Shown here in pieces: positions 49,087-55,495 of a DNA stretch of 64,000 nucleotides. The notes under the pieces are model-generated. The model saw only the letters and a program-made list of their open reading frames with translations, was not told the DNA's origin and ran no database searches. Both the position numbers and the translations under genes were made by a program. Position 1 is the first letter of the stretch, and every line of letters starts with the position of its first letter. Origin of the DNA: Arthrobacter sp. APC 3897 (GTDB lineage: Bacteria > Actinomycetota > Actinomycetes > Actinomycetales > Micrococcaceae); NCBI RefSeq assembly GCF_030407495.1, contig NZ_JASDDG010000021.1:1-64000 (forward strand). Direction: 5' to 3'.

Positions 49087-49887
49087 CTATCCTGCCATCC
49101 CCTTCGGATCCCGCTGCGGCCAGACAGCACGCTCCGCCAGGATTTCGGCCAGCAGATCGGCGCGGTCCGACACCAGTCCGTCCACACCCTCGTCCAGCAG
49201 CCGCTCCATCTCGGCCGGCTCGTTGACCGTCCAGACATGCACCTGCAGCCCCGCCCGGTGGCAGCGGCGCAGGAACGACGGCGTCACCACCTTCACGGGG
49301 CCGTAGCGCGGAGGCACCTGCAGGCACTGGTACCGGCCGGCGCGTGCCAGCAGTCCGGTCAGCCCGAAAGGACCGAGCAGCACCGTGAGCGCGGTAAAAA
49401 CGGCTCCCGCGGAACTCGCGGACCGGCGGCCGGCACGCCGCAGAATCCGCAGTGCCGCCAACCGCCGCCGGTCGGAGAAGGAGGTGACGAGCACGCGCTC
49501 ATGCGCATCATGCTTTTCCAGCAACCGGGCCAGTTCAGCCGATCCCGCGGCGTCCTTGATGTCCACATTCAGGCGCAGGCCCGGCAGTTCGGTCAGCAGC
49601 TGTTCAAAGGTGGGAATCGCGGCGCGTCCGCCGATTCTGGCTGACTGGATCTGCCGGTAGCTGAGCTTTCCCACCGGGCCTCCGGCACCGGCAACCCGGT
49701 CCAGCGTGGCGTCGTGAAAGGCGAGAAGTACTCCGTCACTCGTGGTGCGGACATCCGTTTCCAGATAACCGAACCCCAGGGCGGCGGCGGCACGGAACGC
49801 CGGCAGGGAGTTTTCCAGACCTTCCCGGGAGAAACCGCGGTGGGCGAAGCCCAGCGGGCCGGGGGTGTTCAAGTAGGGGTAGCTCAC
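49087..49887 (-). CDS. Glycerophosphodiester phosphodiesterase
   Basis: 266 residues. Catalytic residues: HRG (about 16), ETD (about 43) and the His in FHDATLDR. A metal-binding region follows at LRLNVDIKD. It hydrolyses glycerophosphodiesters to glycerol 3-phosphate and an alcohol. No signal peptide, so cytoplasmic. GTG start. Coupled to glycerate kinase. Confidence 0.94.
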   Translation of the reverse strand: MSYPYLNTPGPLGFAHRGFSREGLENSLPAFRAAAALGFGYLETDVRTTSDGVLLAFHDATLDRVAGAGGPVGKLSYRQIQSARIGGRAAIPTFEQLLTELPGLRLNVDIKDAAGSAELARLLEKHDAHERVLVTSFSDRRRLAALRILRRAGRRSASSAGAVFTALTVLLGPFGLTGLLARAGRYQCLQVPPRYGPVKVVTPSFLRRCHRAGLQVHVWTVNEPAEMERLLDEGVDGLVSDRADLLAEILAERAVWPQRDPKGMAG

Positions 49888-50026
49888 CCGCGTACTTTAT
49901 CCGGCTTACGGCACTGCAGGGCCGTAAGCCATCCCTAAACGGGTTCCCGGAGTCCTAGACTTGCACCACCCCGACTCCCTGCACCATTTTCCGGTTCCGG
50001 GCGTTCGTGCACTGCGGAGGTATGGC

Positions 50027-52576
50027 TTGACCACAACGTCCCCCACTGAACATGCGGTGCGCGTCCGCCGCACCGGATTTAACCGAGCCCTTCGATGGCC
50101 CGCCGAAGTGCTGGGCGGCAGTGTCCGCCGTGCTCCCGTGACGCTTGGCTTTGTTGTTGTTCTGTGGCTGGCAGGCGCGTTCACCGGGAGCCTGGAAACA
50201 GGCCCCGAAGGTGCCCTCCAGGACTGGGTGGTTTTGTCCGCCGGGTCTTTTCCCGCCCATTGGCCCGCGCTGCTGCTGTCCGGCTTCTGGGCAACAGGCC
50301 TGGCCGGATACGTCTCCGGCACCCTGCTGGTCCTGGCCGTCGGGCTGCCGTCCGAACGCCGGATGGGATCAGTGCGGTTCGCCGCTGCTGCCGGGATATC
50401 CCAGGTACTGGGTTCCCTGCTGGCCCTGGGATTCGCCCATGCAGCCATTGCCGGGGACTGGTCCCGGGCACTGGAGTCGGAATCCTTTGTTGGACCGGTG
50501 GCCCTTACCTGCGGTGCCGCCGCCGCCCTGAGCGCCACATTATCCACTCTCTGGCGCCGCCGGCTTCGGCTCGGGCTGTTCACACTGCTGATGCTGCTGG
50601 CACTGTACGGAGGTTCCCTGCAGAGCGTGACCGTCCTGGCCGCCGCAGCCGTGGGCGGAGTGGGCGGACCACTGCTCTTCGGGCGGCTGCCGCGCTGGCC
50701 CGGCCGCCTTGTCTCCAGCCGCCGGGAGGCACGCGTGCTCGTGGCCCTTGTCGTGGCAGCCTCCGCCGCCGGTCCGGTAATCTCGGCTCTCAGCTCACAG
50801 GCAGTGGGCCCGCTGGCTGTTCTCCGCTATCTCTTCACCTACGTGGATATCACGGACCCGCAGGCCCTGGCCGAGCTGTGCACCGATACCGGCGAGGCCG
50901 CACAGTGCCACGCGGCCAAGCTTCAGCTGCGTGCCGGTCCGGCCGGTTTCTTTTTGGCCACCCTGCCCCAGATCCTGCTCGTGGTCTTCTCCGACGGCCT
51001 TAGACGGGGCCGGCGCTTTGCATGGGGGGCCGCTTTGGTCCTGCAGGCAGTCATGACAGTCCTGGCCGGCATCCGGATACTGCGTCACCTTACCGGCGCG
51101 GACCGCGGCGGCCGCTATGAACTGGGCACGGCCCAGAATGCGCTGGCCCTGGTGCTGCCGATGCTGGTTCCGCTGGCGGTGCTGGTGCTCCTGGCGGCCA
51201 CGCGCAGCCTGTTTACCGTTTCCGCTCCGCCGGGTACCTACCGCAGGCTGGCCGTCTGGGTGGGCAGTGCCGCCGTCGTCCTCAGCGCCCTGTACGTGGC
51301 AGCGGGGCTGCTGCTGCCCGGGGGGTTCACCCCCGCGGCTTCCCTCGGCACCCTGCTGGCGGACCTCCCCGAACGCTTCCTGCCTGTCCTGGTGCTGGCG
51401 ACGCCCGCACCGGTCCTGCTGCCCGCCTCGGCTTTCGCTTCGCTGCTGTACGAGGGCGTCGGCGTGGCGTTTTGGGGCCTCACCTGCATAGTTCTGCTCT
51501 ACTCGTTTGTACAGCCGGCCCACGGCCGGCAGGCACGGGACGGCGACCGCGCCCGGGGCCTTCTCAAGGCACACGGCGGCGGCACCATGGCCTGGATGAC
51601 GCTCTGGCCCGGCAACAGGTACTGGTTTGCGGCGAGCGGGAACTCCTATGTCGCGTTCCGCGGGGATCTCGGTGTTGCCCTGACCGTAGGAGAGCCCGTG
51701 GGCCCCCGCAGTGAACTGCGCAGCACCGTTGAGGAGTTTTCCGCCTACTGCACGGCCAACGGCCTGGCCGCCTGCTTTTATTCGGTGACCGCGGACGTGG
51801 AAGAGATCACCGGGAACCTGGGTTTTTCCCGGCTGCAGGTTGCCGAGGAGACCATCCTGCCGCTGGGGCAGCTGGAGTTCAAAGGGAAGAAGTTTCAGGA
51901 TGTCCGCACGGCCATGAACCACGCCCGGAAAGCAGGCATTGAGGCCAAATGGATTGACTATTCCTCGGCGCCGCTGGCACTCCTTGACCAGCTTCATGCG
52001 ATCTCCGAAGAATGGGTGGCGGACAAGAAGATGCCGGAAATGGGGTTCACACTCGGTGGGCTGGACGAGATCAATGATCCCGAAGTGCGGTGCCTGCTGG
52101 CGCTCGACAGGGACGGCACCGTCCACGGAGTGACGTCCTGGCTGCCCATCTACCGGGACGGCCGGGTGATTGGATGGACGCTGGACTTCATGCGGCGGCG
52201 CAGTTCAGGTTTCCGGCCCAGCATGGATTTTTTGATCGCCTCCGCTGCAACTCTGCTCCAGGATGAAGGCTATGAACTGATCAGCCTTTCCGGGGCGCCT
52301 TTGGCCCGTTCCCGGCAGGGCGGGAAAAGCGAAGCTCCGCTCCTGGACCGTGTGCTGAACCTGCTGGGAGCAACACTGGAACCGGTGTACGGTTTCCGTT
52401 CCCTGCTGGCCTTCAAGGCGAAGTTCCAGCCGCAGTACGTCCCGCTGTACATGACGTACCTCGATCCCGCATCGCTGCCGATGATCGGCAACGCGGTTGC
52501 CCGGGCCTATTTGCCCGGCGTCTCGCTTAGCCAGAGCCTCACCTTGGTGCGTCGGATTGTCGACGGCGTCCGATGA
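50027..52576 (+). CDS. Membrane aminoacyl-lipid synthase with an inactive rhomboid-like N-terminal module
   Basis: 849 residues from the TTG at 50027, preceded by GCGGAGG. Residues ~35-230 read like a rhomboid fold (LLLSGFWATGLAGYVSGTLL, SERRMGSVRF) but the GxSG serine site is replaced (GPVALTCG, 156-163) and the His before the Gly-rich last helix is Ala (AAAAVGGVGG, 205-214). More membrane segments run to about 490. The C-terminal DUF2156 domain (about 511-830) has the MprF features GKKFQDVRTAMNHARK and SLSGAPLA. It should transfer an amino acid from aminoacyl-tRNA to a lipid headgroup; which amino acid and lipid is unknown. It overlaps the next gene by 4 bases. Confidence 0.82.
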   Translation: MTTTSPTEHAVRVRRTGFNRALRWPAEVLGGSVRRAPVTLGFVVVLWLAGAFTGSLETGPEGALQDWVVLSAGSFPAHWPALLLSGFWATGLAGYVSGTLLVLAVGLPSERRMGSVRFAAAAGISQVLGSLLALGFAHAAIAGDWSRALESESFVGPVALTCGAAAALSATLSTLWRRRLRLGLFTLLMLLALYGGSLQSVTVLAAAAVGGVGGPLLFGRLPRWPGRLVSSRREARVLVALVVAASAAGPVISALSSQAVGPLAVLRYLFTYVDITDPQALAELCTDTGEAAQCHAAKLQLRAGPAGFFLATLPQILLVVFSDGLRRGRRFAWGAALVLQAVMTVLAGIRILRHLTGADRGGRYELGTAQNALALVLPMLVPLAVLVLLAATRSLFTVSAPPGTYRRLAVWVGSAAVVLSALYVAAGLLLPGGFTPAASLGTLLADLPERFLPVLVLATPAPVLLPASAFASLLYEGVGVAFWGLTCIVLLYSFVQPAHGRQARDGDRARGLLKAHGGGTMAWMTLWPGNRYWFAASGNSYVAFRGDLGVALTVGEPVGPRSELRSTVEEFSAYCTANGLAACFYSVTADVEEITGNLGFSRLQVAEETILPLGQLEFKGKKFQDVRTAMNHARKAGIEAKWIDYSSAPLALLDQLHAISEEWVADKKMPEMGFTLGGLDEINDPEVRCLLALDRDGTVHGVTSWLPIYRDGRVIGWTLDFMRRRSSGFRPSMDFLIASAATLLQDEGYELISLSGAPLARSRQGGKSEAPLLDRVLNLLGATLEPVYGFRSLLAFKAKFQPQYVPLYMTYLDPASLPMIGNAVARAYLPGVSLSQSLTLVRRIVDGVR

Positions 52577-53874
52577 ACTCGGTCTCCCTGCTGACGGGGG
52601 TGGTGCCGGTTGTCCTGCTGGCCCTCGGCGGAATGTCCCTGATCTGGCTCGCTTCCGGCGGGGCACGGCATTTGCTCGTGGTGGTTCCGGCGGCGGCCCT
52701 GGCCTCTGCGGCGCTGACGTTTTCCCTGTTCCTCTTGGCTGAAGGCGTCTTCCATTGGTGGGATGCTTCATTTCCGCGGATATTGTACGTATATGCCGGA
52801 TTAGGAATACTTGCTGTGATCCTGGCCGGCGTCCGTTTGCGGACCGGAAGGTCCGCTCCGCCCAAGATCCTGGCGTTGACCGCTGCATCCCTGGCACTGC
52901 TGGCCGTGGCCGTCACCGTCAATGCTGCCTACGCCCAGTATCCAACGCTGGAGTCCCTGGTCAGCCCGCCAAGGCCGGTGGATGAAGCTCTTCCGGAACG
53001 GGATCCCGCAACGGCCGCCGGCCTGCCGGCCACAACGGAGGCGAACTGGACTGCACCCCCGGACATGCCGTCGGAGGGCAGGATCTACTCGGCGGAGATC
53101 CCGGGCAGCACTTCCGGTTACGCCTCCAACTCCGCACTGGTTTACCTTCCTCCCGCTTATCTGGCTTCGCCGGCCGCGGTGAACCTTCCAGTTCTGGTGC
53201 TCATCCACGGCCAGCCCGGAAACCCCAGCGACTGGCTGGTGGGCGGGCAGCTGCTGACTATGGTGGACACGTTCGCGGCCAAACACCACGGGCTGGCGCC
53301 GGTAGTGGTCATGCCCGATGCCTCCAACGCGGATAACGCCAACTGGCCCCTCTGCCTCGATTCGGACATCAGCTCCTCGGCAACCTATCTGGCCGTGGAT
53401 TTGCCGGCCTGGGTGCGGCAGCATCTGGCCGCAGGCCTCAGCGGAGGCAGCCAGTGGGCCGTGGCCGGCTATTCCTACGGCGGCACCTGTGCTCTGCAGC
53501 TGGCCACGAACTTTCCGGACACCTACCCCACTTTCATTGACATCGCCGGCGAATCGGCGCCCACCGTGACACAGGGCCAGGATTTCCTCATCAACACCTA
53601 CTTTGGCGGAAACAAGTCGAGGTTTACGAGCCAAAACGCACTGGACCTGCTGGCAGCGAAATCGTTTCCGGATTCCGCGGGCATCTTTGCCGTCGGCGCC
53701 GATGACTCCGTGTACACACCCGAAGGCCGCCGGGTCTACGCGGCCGCCAAAGCTGCGGGCATGGATGTCAGCCTGCAGGTGCTGCCCGGCGGCCACTCCT
53801 GGCAGGTGTGGAAGGCGGGGCTGGCGAACAACCTGGACTGGCTCTGCCGCCGATTGGGCATACTGGGTTCATGA
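52573..53874 (+). CDS. Membrane-anchored extracytoplasmic esterase
   Basis: 433 residues. Four membrane segments (about 4-25, 31-56, 65-82, 96-120) precede a soluble alpha/beta hydrolase domain like esterase D or antigen 85. The nucleophile elbow is GYSYGG (Ser at about 301), an acid is near GADDSV, and the His is in GGHSWQ (about 406). The domain should face the cell exterior. The ATG overlaps the synthase stop (ATGA), so the two are co-translated. It could reverse or trim the lipid made by the synthase, but this is a guess. Confidence 0.8.
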   Translation: MNSVSLLTGVVPVVLLALGGMSLIWLASGGARHLLVVVPAAALASAALTFSLFLLAEGVFHWWDASFPRILYVYAGLGILAVILAGVRLRTGRSAPPKILALTAASLALLAVAVTVNAAYAQYPTLESLVSPPRPVDEALPERDPATAAGLPATTEANWTAPPDMPSEGRIYSAEIPGSTSGYASNSALVYLPPAYLASPAAVNLPVLVLIHGQPGNPSDWLVGGQLLTMVDTFAAKHHGLAPVVVMPDASNADNANWPLCLDSDISSSATYLAVDLPAWVRQHLAAGLSGGSQWAVAGYSYGGTCALQLATNFPDTYPTFIDIAGESAPTVTQGQDFLINTYFGGNKSRFTSQNALDLLAAKSFPDSAGIFAVGADDSVYTPEGRRVYAAAKAAGMDVSLQVLPGGHSWQVWKAGLANNLDWLCRRLGILGS

Positions 53875-54674
53875 CCGATAGCCCAGAAGGGACCCCTCCC
53901 TCCGATCCCCGGGACCAAGGCGGCCGCCCTCCCCGGCCCGGCACGCGGGCCTGGGCGGCTTCGCTGCTGCACCGCCTGGCGCAGTGGACATCTCCGCACG
54001 CCGCCCTGCTGATCACACTGGCACTGGGGCTGATTCCCGCGATGCTCCTGACACTGGGTTCTGCCGAGGTTTATGAAGCGGTGGCGGAGTCCGAGGGCGT
54101 GGCCCTGCTGGATGAGCCCGCACTGGATGCGGCACTGGCGGTGCGTTCACCCTGGACGGATGCGGCTGTAACTGCGTTCACGAATCTGGCCGGCACGGTG
54201 GGCATGCCCATCCTGGCAGGTACGGCAACGCTGGTGCTGGCCTGGCGCTGGAAGTCCTGGACCCCGGTACTCCTTATGGTGTCCGCCGCGGCCGGGTCAC
54301 TGCTGATGACGGTGGCGGGGAAGGATTTGATCGGCCGGACCCGGCCTCCGCTGTTGGACGCCGTTCCGCCGTATGAATACTCGGCGTCGTTTCCCAGCGG
54401 GCATTCCCTGAATTCGGTGGTCATTGCCGGCATGGTGGCATACCTGATCATCCTGCGGCTTCAGGCACGGCGGGCCAAGCTCCTGACGGCGGCGGCCGCC
54501 GCGGCTTTCGCCGTTGCCGTAGGACTGAGCCGTGTCTACCTGGGACACCACTGGCTCACCGACGTCCTGGTGGCATGGACGCTGGGACTGGCCTGGCTGG
54601 CGGTGGTCATCACCGTCCACCGGCTGCTGCACTCACGCCGGGCAGCAGCTCAGGGTATCGACGCCGGAGGGTAA
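53871..54674 (+). CDS. PAP2-family membrane phosphatase
   Basis: 267 residues, six membrane segments. Phosphatidic-acid-phosphatase type 2 motifs: KDLIGRTRPP, SFPSGHS and SRVYLGHHWLTD, complete with all catalytic residues. It dephosphorylates lipid phosphates or undecaprenyl pyrophosphate. The ATG overlaps the esterase stop by 4 bases. Third and last gene of the coupled lipid operon. Confidence 0.93.
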   Translation: MTDSPEGTPPSDPRDQGGRPPRPGTRAWAASLLHRLAQWTSPHAALLITLALGLIPAMLLTLGSAEVYEAVAESEGVALLDEPALDAALAVRSPWTDAAVTAFTNLAGTVGMPILAGTATLVLAWRWKSWTPVLLMVSAAAGSLLMTVAGKDLIGRTRPPLLDAVPPYEYSASFPSGHSLNSVVIAGMVAYLIILRLQARRAKLLTAAAAAAFAVAVGLSRVYLGHHWLTDVLVAWTLGLAWLAVVITVHRLLHSRRAAAQGIDAGG

Positions 54675-54691: not shown

Positions 54692-55495
54692 TTAGAGCCT
54701 GCGCAGGAGGGATTCCAGCACCTGGGCCACGCCGTCGTCAGCGAAGGCCGGGGCTACCCGGTCAGCCGCCGCCAATGCATCGGCGTGGCCGGACGCCATG
54801 GCGTAGCCGCGCCCGGCCCACTGCAGCATCTGCACATCATTGGGCATGTCACCGAAGGCCACCACATCCGCCGGAGCAATGTCGCGGGATGCGGCGTAGT
54901 CGGCCAGCGTGACCGACTTGTTCAAGCCGTGCAGGGACATCTCCAGCAGCGGAACCGCAGGCGCGGAGTGCGTGGTGGACACCAGGTGCGATACCGCCGG
55001 GCGGACCCGGTGCAGGAACTCATCCGGAGACGTGCCGTCCACGCGTGCCAGGAACTTCACCACCGTGTCCGCCTCGGAGAGGCTGGATTCCAGCGGGGCG
55101 GGAGCCGCCGCGCCCGGCAATTCCCTTGAACCGGGTTCGAGGAATCCCGGAGCCAGATGGAAGCCGTCCACGGTTTCCGCAGCGAACCGGACCGCCGGGT
55201 AGAGCTTCCGAATGATCTCAGCGGCCGTGAAGAGATCCGACAACGCCAGGGCCTGCGCCTTGAGCACCCGTCCGGCACCCAGATCGTAGGTTACGGCACC
55301 GTTGGAACAGATGACGGTGCCGGTATGCCCCAGGGCATCGGTGAGCGGGGTCAGCCAGCGCGGGGGCCGGCCCGTGACAAAGACAATCTCGACACCGGCG
55401 TCCACGCAGTCCCGGAACGCACGGACGGTGCGGTCGCTGATCCTGTTGTCGGGCCCCACAATGGTCCCGTCCAGGTCGCTTGCTACCAAACGCAC
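54692..55495 (-). CDS. HAD-superfamily (Cof-type) phosphatase
   Basis: 267 residues. Motif I DLDGTIVGPDN (about 7-17), motif II VTGRPPRW (about 40-47) and motif III/IV FGDMPNDVQML (about 214-224). A C2-type cap lies between. It is the second Cof-type phosphatase in the window (the other ends at 33011). Substrate unknown. GTG start at 55495. Confidence 0.9.
   Translation of the reverse strand: MRLVASDLDGTIVGPDNRISDRTVRAFRDCVDAGVEIVFVTGRPPRWLTPLTDALGHTGTVICSNGAVTYDLGAGRVLKAQALALSDLFTAAEIIRKLYPAVRFAAETVDGFHLAPGFLEPGSRELPGAAAPAPLESSLSEADTVVKFLARVDGTSPDEFLHRVRPAVSHLVSTTHSAPAVPLLEMSLHGLNKSVTLADYAASRDIAPADVVAFGDMPNDVQMLQWAGRGYAMASGHADALAAADRVAPAFADDGVAQVLESLLRRL

Follow-up and report, generated by a model that had tools for sequence, protein, structure and literature searches.

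A putative lipid-aminoacylation operon of Arthrobacter with a rhomboid-like domain fused to its synthase

If a synthase without a flippase domain aminoacylates its lipid in the cytosol, by what path does that lipid get to an esterase whose site of action is probably outside the cell? The question is raised by three genes in a stretch of 64,000 nucleotides from Arthrobacter sp. APC 3897 (contig NZ_JASDDG010000021.1, positions 1 to 64,000; hereafter the window). They encode a rhomboid-like domain fused to an MprF-type synthase (gene 1), a membrane-tethered esterase (gene 2) and a PAP2 phosphatase (gene 3). This operon probably represents, in Arthrobacter, the AlaDAGS-PesT module for lipid aminoacylation, extended by a phosphatase: gene 1 would make aminoacyl-diacylglycerol (aminoacyl-DAG) and gene 2 would move the amino acid to phosphatidylglycerol (PG). 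The module itself is known; the parts that vary are the added PAP2 gene and an apparently undescribed pseudo-rhomboid in place of the flippase. The domains, the fold, the loss of the catalytic dyad, the linkage and the orthology to the Corynebacterium glutamicum pair were computed here, whereas the acceptor (DAG), the donated amino acid (alanine) and the involvement in alanyl-PG (Ala-PG) come from the literature on orthologs. This reading would tie an Arthrobacter operon to a published pathway, add a bacterial case of a rhomboid pseudoprotease joined to a lipid enzyme, where a flippase would otherwise sit, and make the opening question testable in C. glutamicum.

The rhomboid-like domain and the synthase

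In a Pfam scan of the single protein the N-terminal domain of gene 1 stays invisible: its score against the rhomboid family PF01694 is below the cut-off of 22.6 (11.8 bits for the whole protein, 17.7 bits for the domain alone). The domain was revealed by alignment and structure. Among 36 aligned relatives, 28 match PF01694 (best E-value 1.8e-7) and 23 match Rhomboid_2, PF20401 (best 1.5e-12), both at E up to 1. The initial annotation of the locus had proposed comparing the predicted structure with rhomboid folds; this comparison was run and gives six transmembrane (TM) helices in a rhomboid fold with the E-x3-G motif in TM2, with iRhom1 and iRhom2 among the best matches.

The predicted fold is that of a true rhomboid without its catalytic dyad. 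GPVALTCG (residues 156-163) and AAAAVGG (residues 205-211) lie where they had been annotated. The catalytic Ser column in TM4 holds Val158, and none of 59 rows has a His at column 203 or 207, the two places where the catalytic His of TM6 is expected in an ambiguous register (one row has His at 208). These 59 rows omit L001, the frame-split L011, six alphaproteobacterial MprF loci and six duplicates, and keep the frame-split L016 as its longer frame. With the fold matches and both substitutions, the annotated fusion of an inactive rhomboid fold to an MprF-type synthase stands. It might be argued that the domain still cleaves peptides via a rearranged active site, as Ser occupies the GxS column in 19 of the 59 rows, many of them as GPSA. 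We regard this as hardly credible: Asp replaces the Ser in the C. glutamicum ortholog, the TM6 His is missing throughout, and both true rhomboids of the window genome retain their motifs (GASG/AHLGG and GISG/AHLFG).

Though catalysis appears lost, constraint is retained in the aligned sequences, since E110, G114, R178, R179, R181, G196 and G210 are invariant in an alignment of 43 rows. E110 and G114, the rhomboid TM2 motif, are kept in 58 of 59 relatives; the three arginines form an RR-x-R cluster after TM4. These invariant residues speak against the view that the N-terminal domain is a structural remnant and the PAP2 gene a mere operon neighbour, which we find quite improbable, and so does the retention of the domain in 66 of the 67 members of its synthase clade (see below). 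Such a remnant would fit the lower mean column identity of the domain (41%, 36 rows) compared to the whole protein (51%, 43 rows).

The C-terminal part agrees with its annotation as a DUF2156/MprF-type synthase: PF09924 matches residues 512-811 with 271.6 bits, the sole match to this family in the window genome. No match to the flippase domain PF03706 was found in the protein at E up to 1 (the positive controls L136 and L224 do match), and at the same threshold there is no C-terminal lysyl-tRNA synthetase domain, PF09924 being the last domain of a protein that ends at 849 amino acids. From residue 234 on, the full model lines up in order with MprF starting at residue 341 or 355 of the latter (root-mean-square deviation about 20, thus informative on domain order only), and therefore the pseudo-rhomboid sits at the flippase position. 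A crude hydropathy scan finds 13 hydrophobic windows, and two invariant cysteines (C285, C294) lie in a loop of the second TM region. Shorter variants (L081 and L142, about 700-745 amino acids) keep the pseudo-rhomboid and the synthase with a much shortened second TM region.

The esterase and the C. glutamicum pair

Gene 2 was annotated as a membrane-tethered esterase that probably faces outward, which agrees with our results. Four hydrophobic windows (residues 6-117) precede a PF00756 domain (51.4 bits), and the basic character of the loop ahead of the last helix points to a catalytic domain on the outside. The protein has the sequence of an active-type serine hydrolase, because S301, D378 and H408 are conserved (in 67, 67 and 65 of 68 linked esterases, respectively); C261 and C306 are each kept in 67 of the 68. 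PF00756 includes the antigen 85 acyl-transferases, so transfer has a precedent in this family.

We searched 242 genomes of the C. glutamicum genus for the synthase and singled out G674, a genome in a single contig. Over 824 positions its only PF09924 gene shares 36% identity with gene 1; this gene contains the pseudo-rhomboid domain (E 3.1e-39; Asp, Met and Thr at the dyad columns 158, 203 and 207) and lies just downstream of a gene-2 homolog (esterase profile E 4.5e-112; 33% identity over 399 positions). Given this identity, the shared domain and the adjacent homolog, the G674 gene is very probably AlaDAGS with PesT upstream, and the published AlaDAGS thus very probably carries a pseudo-rhomboid domain. 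According to PMC10580965 (2023), AlaDAGS makes alanyl-DAG (Ala-DAG), a C. pseudotuberculosis strain deleted for alaDAGS has neither Ala-DAG nor Ala-PG, and, by analogy with C. glutamicum, PG is proposed to receive the amino acid from aminoacyl-DAG. The same paper reports six predicted TM helices for the C. pseudotuberculosis protein and contains the word rhomboid 0 times. This helix count is perhaps an under-prediction, since our crude scan sees 8 hydropathy windows in the C. glutamicum protein (two inside the N-terminal domain) against 13 in gene 1; a doubt on the orthology based on the six helices was set aside for this reason. A PF03706 match in the C. glutamicum control genome is uninformative on AlaDAGS.

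From these data a route can be proposed. Gene 1 would use cytosolic aminoacyl-tRNA to aminoacylate DAG, probably with alanine, the product described for the ortholog, and the aminoacyl-DAG would arrive in the outer leaflet. Here gene 2, anchored by four TM helices and with its hydrolase domain probably outside, might pass the amino acid from DAG to phosphatidylglycerol by transesterification, as the published PesT dependence suggests. Gene 3 could contribute by turning phosphatidate into the DAG acceptor or phosphatidylglycerol phosphate into PG, and the pseudo-rhomboid may help the product across the membrane or dock the esterase.

The initial annotation had instead proposed a make-and-trim system, in which the esterase hydrolyses the aminoacyl-lipid and lowers its level, as AcvB acts on lysyl-PG beside LpiA in Agrobacterium. 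An operon of a synthase and a hydrolase has this precedent (lpiA-acvB, PMC13197417), and gene 2 is indeed an apparently intact, probably outward-facing serine hydrolase. Nevertheless trimming is unlikely and was not supported. In the very probable ortholog, formation of Ala-PG from Ala-DAG is tied to the partner step, which moves gene 2 from a putative trimmer to a putative transferase; transfer to PG is, moreover, the published proposal, and antigen 85 offers a precedent for it. Gene 2 also matches PF00756, with no VirJ-type family among its matches at E up to 1 (no direct comparison with VirJ was made). The family matches at that threshold thus do not support an AcvB-type hydrolase, which stays a less likely reading.

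Linkage, origin and role of the pseudo-rhomboid

In 149 genomes of the window's family, 75 match gene 1 and 64 match gene 2. From 101 gene-1 matches we retained 67 near-full-length places, dropping 34 that were partial or LysX-like. Linkage between synthase and esterase exceeds chance, as an esterase homolog lies within 1.5 kb of 46 of these 67 places; 4 more lie within 10 kb, and gene 2 is present in 50 of the 54 genomes with such a place. The pair also occurs, in either order, in Streptomyces, Yinghuangia, Kibdelosporangium, Actinocrispum, Catenulispora, Klenkia, Modestobacter, Dactylosporangium and Rhodococcus. The expectation that the three-gene order would recur in other actinobacteria was thus borne out for synthase and esterase, but PAP2 is linked only in some lineages.

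Among 20 PF09924 places of the C. glutamicum genus that are not LysX-like, 18 have the pseudo-rhomboid, 18 an adjacent esterase and 17 both. L214 encodes a synthase of about 460 amino acids with neither the pseudo-rhomboid nor a neighbouring esterase (possibly a joint loss), and L219 has the pseudo-rhomboid and no esterase nearby. In two genomes of this genus (L136, L224) a PesT-like esterase lies directly upstream of a flippase-type MprF (PF03706 with PF09924), hence the same esterase partner adjoins either type of N-terminal domain.

Across the phylum the spread of the module, judged from sequence matches, is patchy: the N-terminal profile matches 41 of 296 genomes drawn. Of the matched places only the top 10 (E 2.2e-17 or better) proved to be pseudo-rhomboid synthases, judged from the tree or from identity with its loci; two weaker matches that were checked are stand-alone Rhomboid_2 proteins. 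At most 10 candidates per genome were scored in this search, which may thus overlook weak synthases. A tree of 97 synthase domains (quick method; Shimodaira-Hasegawa-like approximate likelihood ratio test, SH-aLRT, only), with 66 of 94 pseudo-rhomboid types kept after thinning, places all 66 in one clade together with one truncated member (support 100). L079 and L080 in this clade come from outside the class. Other synthases of the C. glutamicum genus fall inside it, the G674 gene itself being outside the sample. LysX types (labelled by their long C-terminal extension), short Streptomyces types and flippase-type MprF are all outside, the short types on the LysX side. The fusion of rhomboid and synthase looks to have a single origin, old within Actinomycetota. 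L136 and L194 were flagged for their long branches, which can be joined falsely in such a tree.

What might the domain do? Most likely it has no proteolytic role and helps either to bring the product through the membrane or to dock the esterase. The initial annotation had suggested that it might guide or sense lipid. One tentative possibility is docking only, where an iRhom-like pseudo-rhomboid holds the esterase or another membrane partner by the synthase and the lipid crosses alone or via a separate flippase. The iRhom matches, the linkage of gene 2 to pseudo-rhomboid synthases in many genera and L214, which lacks both partners, are consistent with this, as is a stand-alone PF03706 protein encoded elsewhere in the window genome (G000:C50:2649-3557, L228). 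However, docking needs no pseudo-rhomboid, given the esterases next to flippase-type MprF in L136 and L224, and L219 keeps the domain without an esterase nearby. Somewhat less likely still, the pseudo-rhomboid could be a lipid translocator that lost proteolysis, now moves aminoacyl-DAG (or aminoacyl-PG) between leaflets and replaces the MprF flippase domain in one old actinobacterial lineage, including the AlaDAGS prototype; the ground for this is its location where the flippase lies and the esterase adjoining either N-terminal type. Against it stand the possibility that aminoacyl-DAG flips unaided and the stand-alone PF03706 protein of the window genome.

A PAP2 phosphatase is defined by the motifs K-x6-RP, PSGH and SR-x5-H-x3-D. 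Gene 3 has all three intact and matches PAP2 with 82.7 bits, in line with its annotation. Arthrobacter has the PAP2 homolog 3' of the esterase; in L139 it lies 5' of the esterase, and in L010/L052, L015, L016, L022 and L053 it directly precedes the synthase, as far as one phmmer query and flanks of only 1.5 kb at many loci can tell. From these sequences PAP2 is a recurrent, not a universal partner; the three arrangements speak against a mere operon neighbour, though the small number of lineages agrees with one.

Several points weigh against assigning the operon to the AlaDAGS-PesT module. The amino acid and the acceptor lipid are both taken over from an ortholog that shares 36% identity; G674 is presumed to be C. 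glutamicum ATCC 13032, and the need for the upstream esterase in making Ala-PG in that species is reportedly a finding of Smith et al. in 2015. Gene order differs as well, with the esterase first in C. glutamicum and the synthase first in the window. Gene 2 is far away at 5 of the 67 gene-1 places and absent from the contig at 12, and 14 of the 64 genomes with gene 2 have no near-full gene 1. In the one phmmer query, with short flanks at many loci, PAP2 adjoined the module only in Arthrobacter, in Pseudarthrobacter-type loci and at one Mycobacteriaceae locus, and therefore seems dispensable to it. When the N-terminal domain was compared by hhalign with the two rhomboids encoded in the window genome, no match resulted (probability 1.1%); a profile comparison with two Rhomboid_2 proteins succeeded. 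Finally, according to PMC10580965, a C. pseudotuberculosis strain without alaDAGS showed no significant change in resistance to any antimicrobial tested.

Operon layout and comparison with known systems

The features are listed in Table 1. Reading the sequence confirmed the annotated TTG start, the gene coordinates and the overlaps of 4 nucleotides (ATGA) at both junctions (52573-52576 and 53871-53874). In the window's genus (window included) the synthase-esterase junction measures -4 to +16 nucleotides in 13 of 14 loci, the exception being L012, whose esterase is split between two frames. Between esterase and PAP2 the value is -4 in 8 of 13 measurable loci and -31 to -67 in the remaining 5, lengths that rest on a crude choice of start codons. 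Overlaps and short junctions across the genus together agree with the annotated coupled operon. Frame splits were seen for gene 1 (two frames in L011 and L016) and for the esterase (two frames in L012).

Table 1. Features of the operon, in window positions
Feature	Position	Strand	Description
Shine-Dalgarno-like GGAGG	50016..50020	+	6 nucleotides 5' of the TTG start; sequence reading
Gene 1	50027..52576	+	Pseudo-rhomboid and MprF-type synthase, 849 amino acids; very probable AlaDAGS ortholog
Gene 1, residues 32-224	50120..50698	+	Predicted six-TM rhomboid fold
Gene 1, residues 245-500	50759..51526	+	Second TM region, partly aligned with the synthase-side TM region of MprF/LysX
Gene 1, residues 501-829	51527..52513	+	PF09924/DUF2156 aminoacyl-tRNA:lipid transferase domain
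Gene 2	52573..53874	+	4 hydrophobic windows and PF00756 serine esterase, 433 amino acids; very probable PesT ortholog
Gene 3	53871..54674	+	PAP2 phosphatase, 267 amino acids

Judged from their translations, a glycerophosphodiester-phosphodiesterase-like gene (49087-49887, minus strand) is divergent from the operon and a HAD-like gene (54692-55495, minus strand) converges on its end.

Compared to MprF and LpiA (PDB 7duw, 7f47, 9j8s), gene 1 has no PF03706 domain and carries the pseudo-rhomboid at the flippase position. LysX, an actinobacterial aminoacyl-DAG synthase according to PMC10580965, resembles gene 1 in a partial match of its model NF002821 over residues 315-827, below cut-off, but gene 1 lacks the C-terminal lysyl-tRNA synthetase domain and lies on a separate side of the tree. 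Unlike the rhomboid pseudoproteases iRhom and Derlin, the gene 1 domain is fused to a lipid-modifying enzyme. Its nearest profile relative among those tested is Rhomboid_2 (PF20401) of Actinobacteria; those proteins, however, are stand-alone, and the two examined keep GVS and GHF at the equivalent positions. No paper joining rhomboid with DUF2156, MprF or lysyl-phosphatidylglycerol was found, which is weak evidence as the search was largely outside subscription journals; in PMC6656915, rhomboid and MprF-related terms refer to different proteins.

Streptomyces coelicolor has a similar pair of an esterase gene and a DUF2156 (MprF) gene, SCO3396 and SCO3397, which bear consecutive numbers and are both sigma-E dependent (PMC6767563); loss of SCO3397 raises sensitivity to vancomycin and bacitracin (PMC3123327). 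Other Streptomyces loci and the tree suggest that SCO3397 is probably of the shorter synthase type without a pseudo-rhomboid. Short PF09924 synthases (frames of about 600-680 amino acids) were also seen in Streptomycetaceae (G254:C6, G308:C11, G170:C1 and others), often with a gene-2-like esterase that matches weakly (E mostly 1e-12 to 1e-24) and lies at a distance of 1-3 kb in the opposite orientation; by eye, at least 20 of 41 Streptomycetaceae genomes have such a pair, which resembles SCO3396/SCO3397. With AlaDAGS-PesT of C. glutamicum the window operon shares a very probably orthologous synthase, the same pseudo-rhomboid and the same kind of adjacent PF00756 esterase, and differs from it by the PAP2 gene 3' of both.

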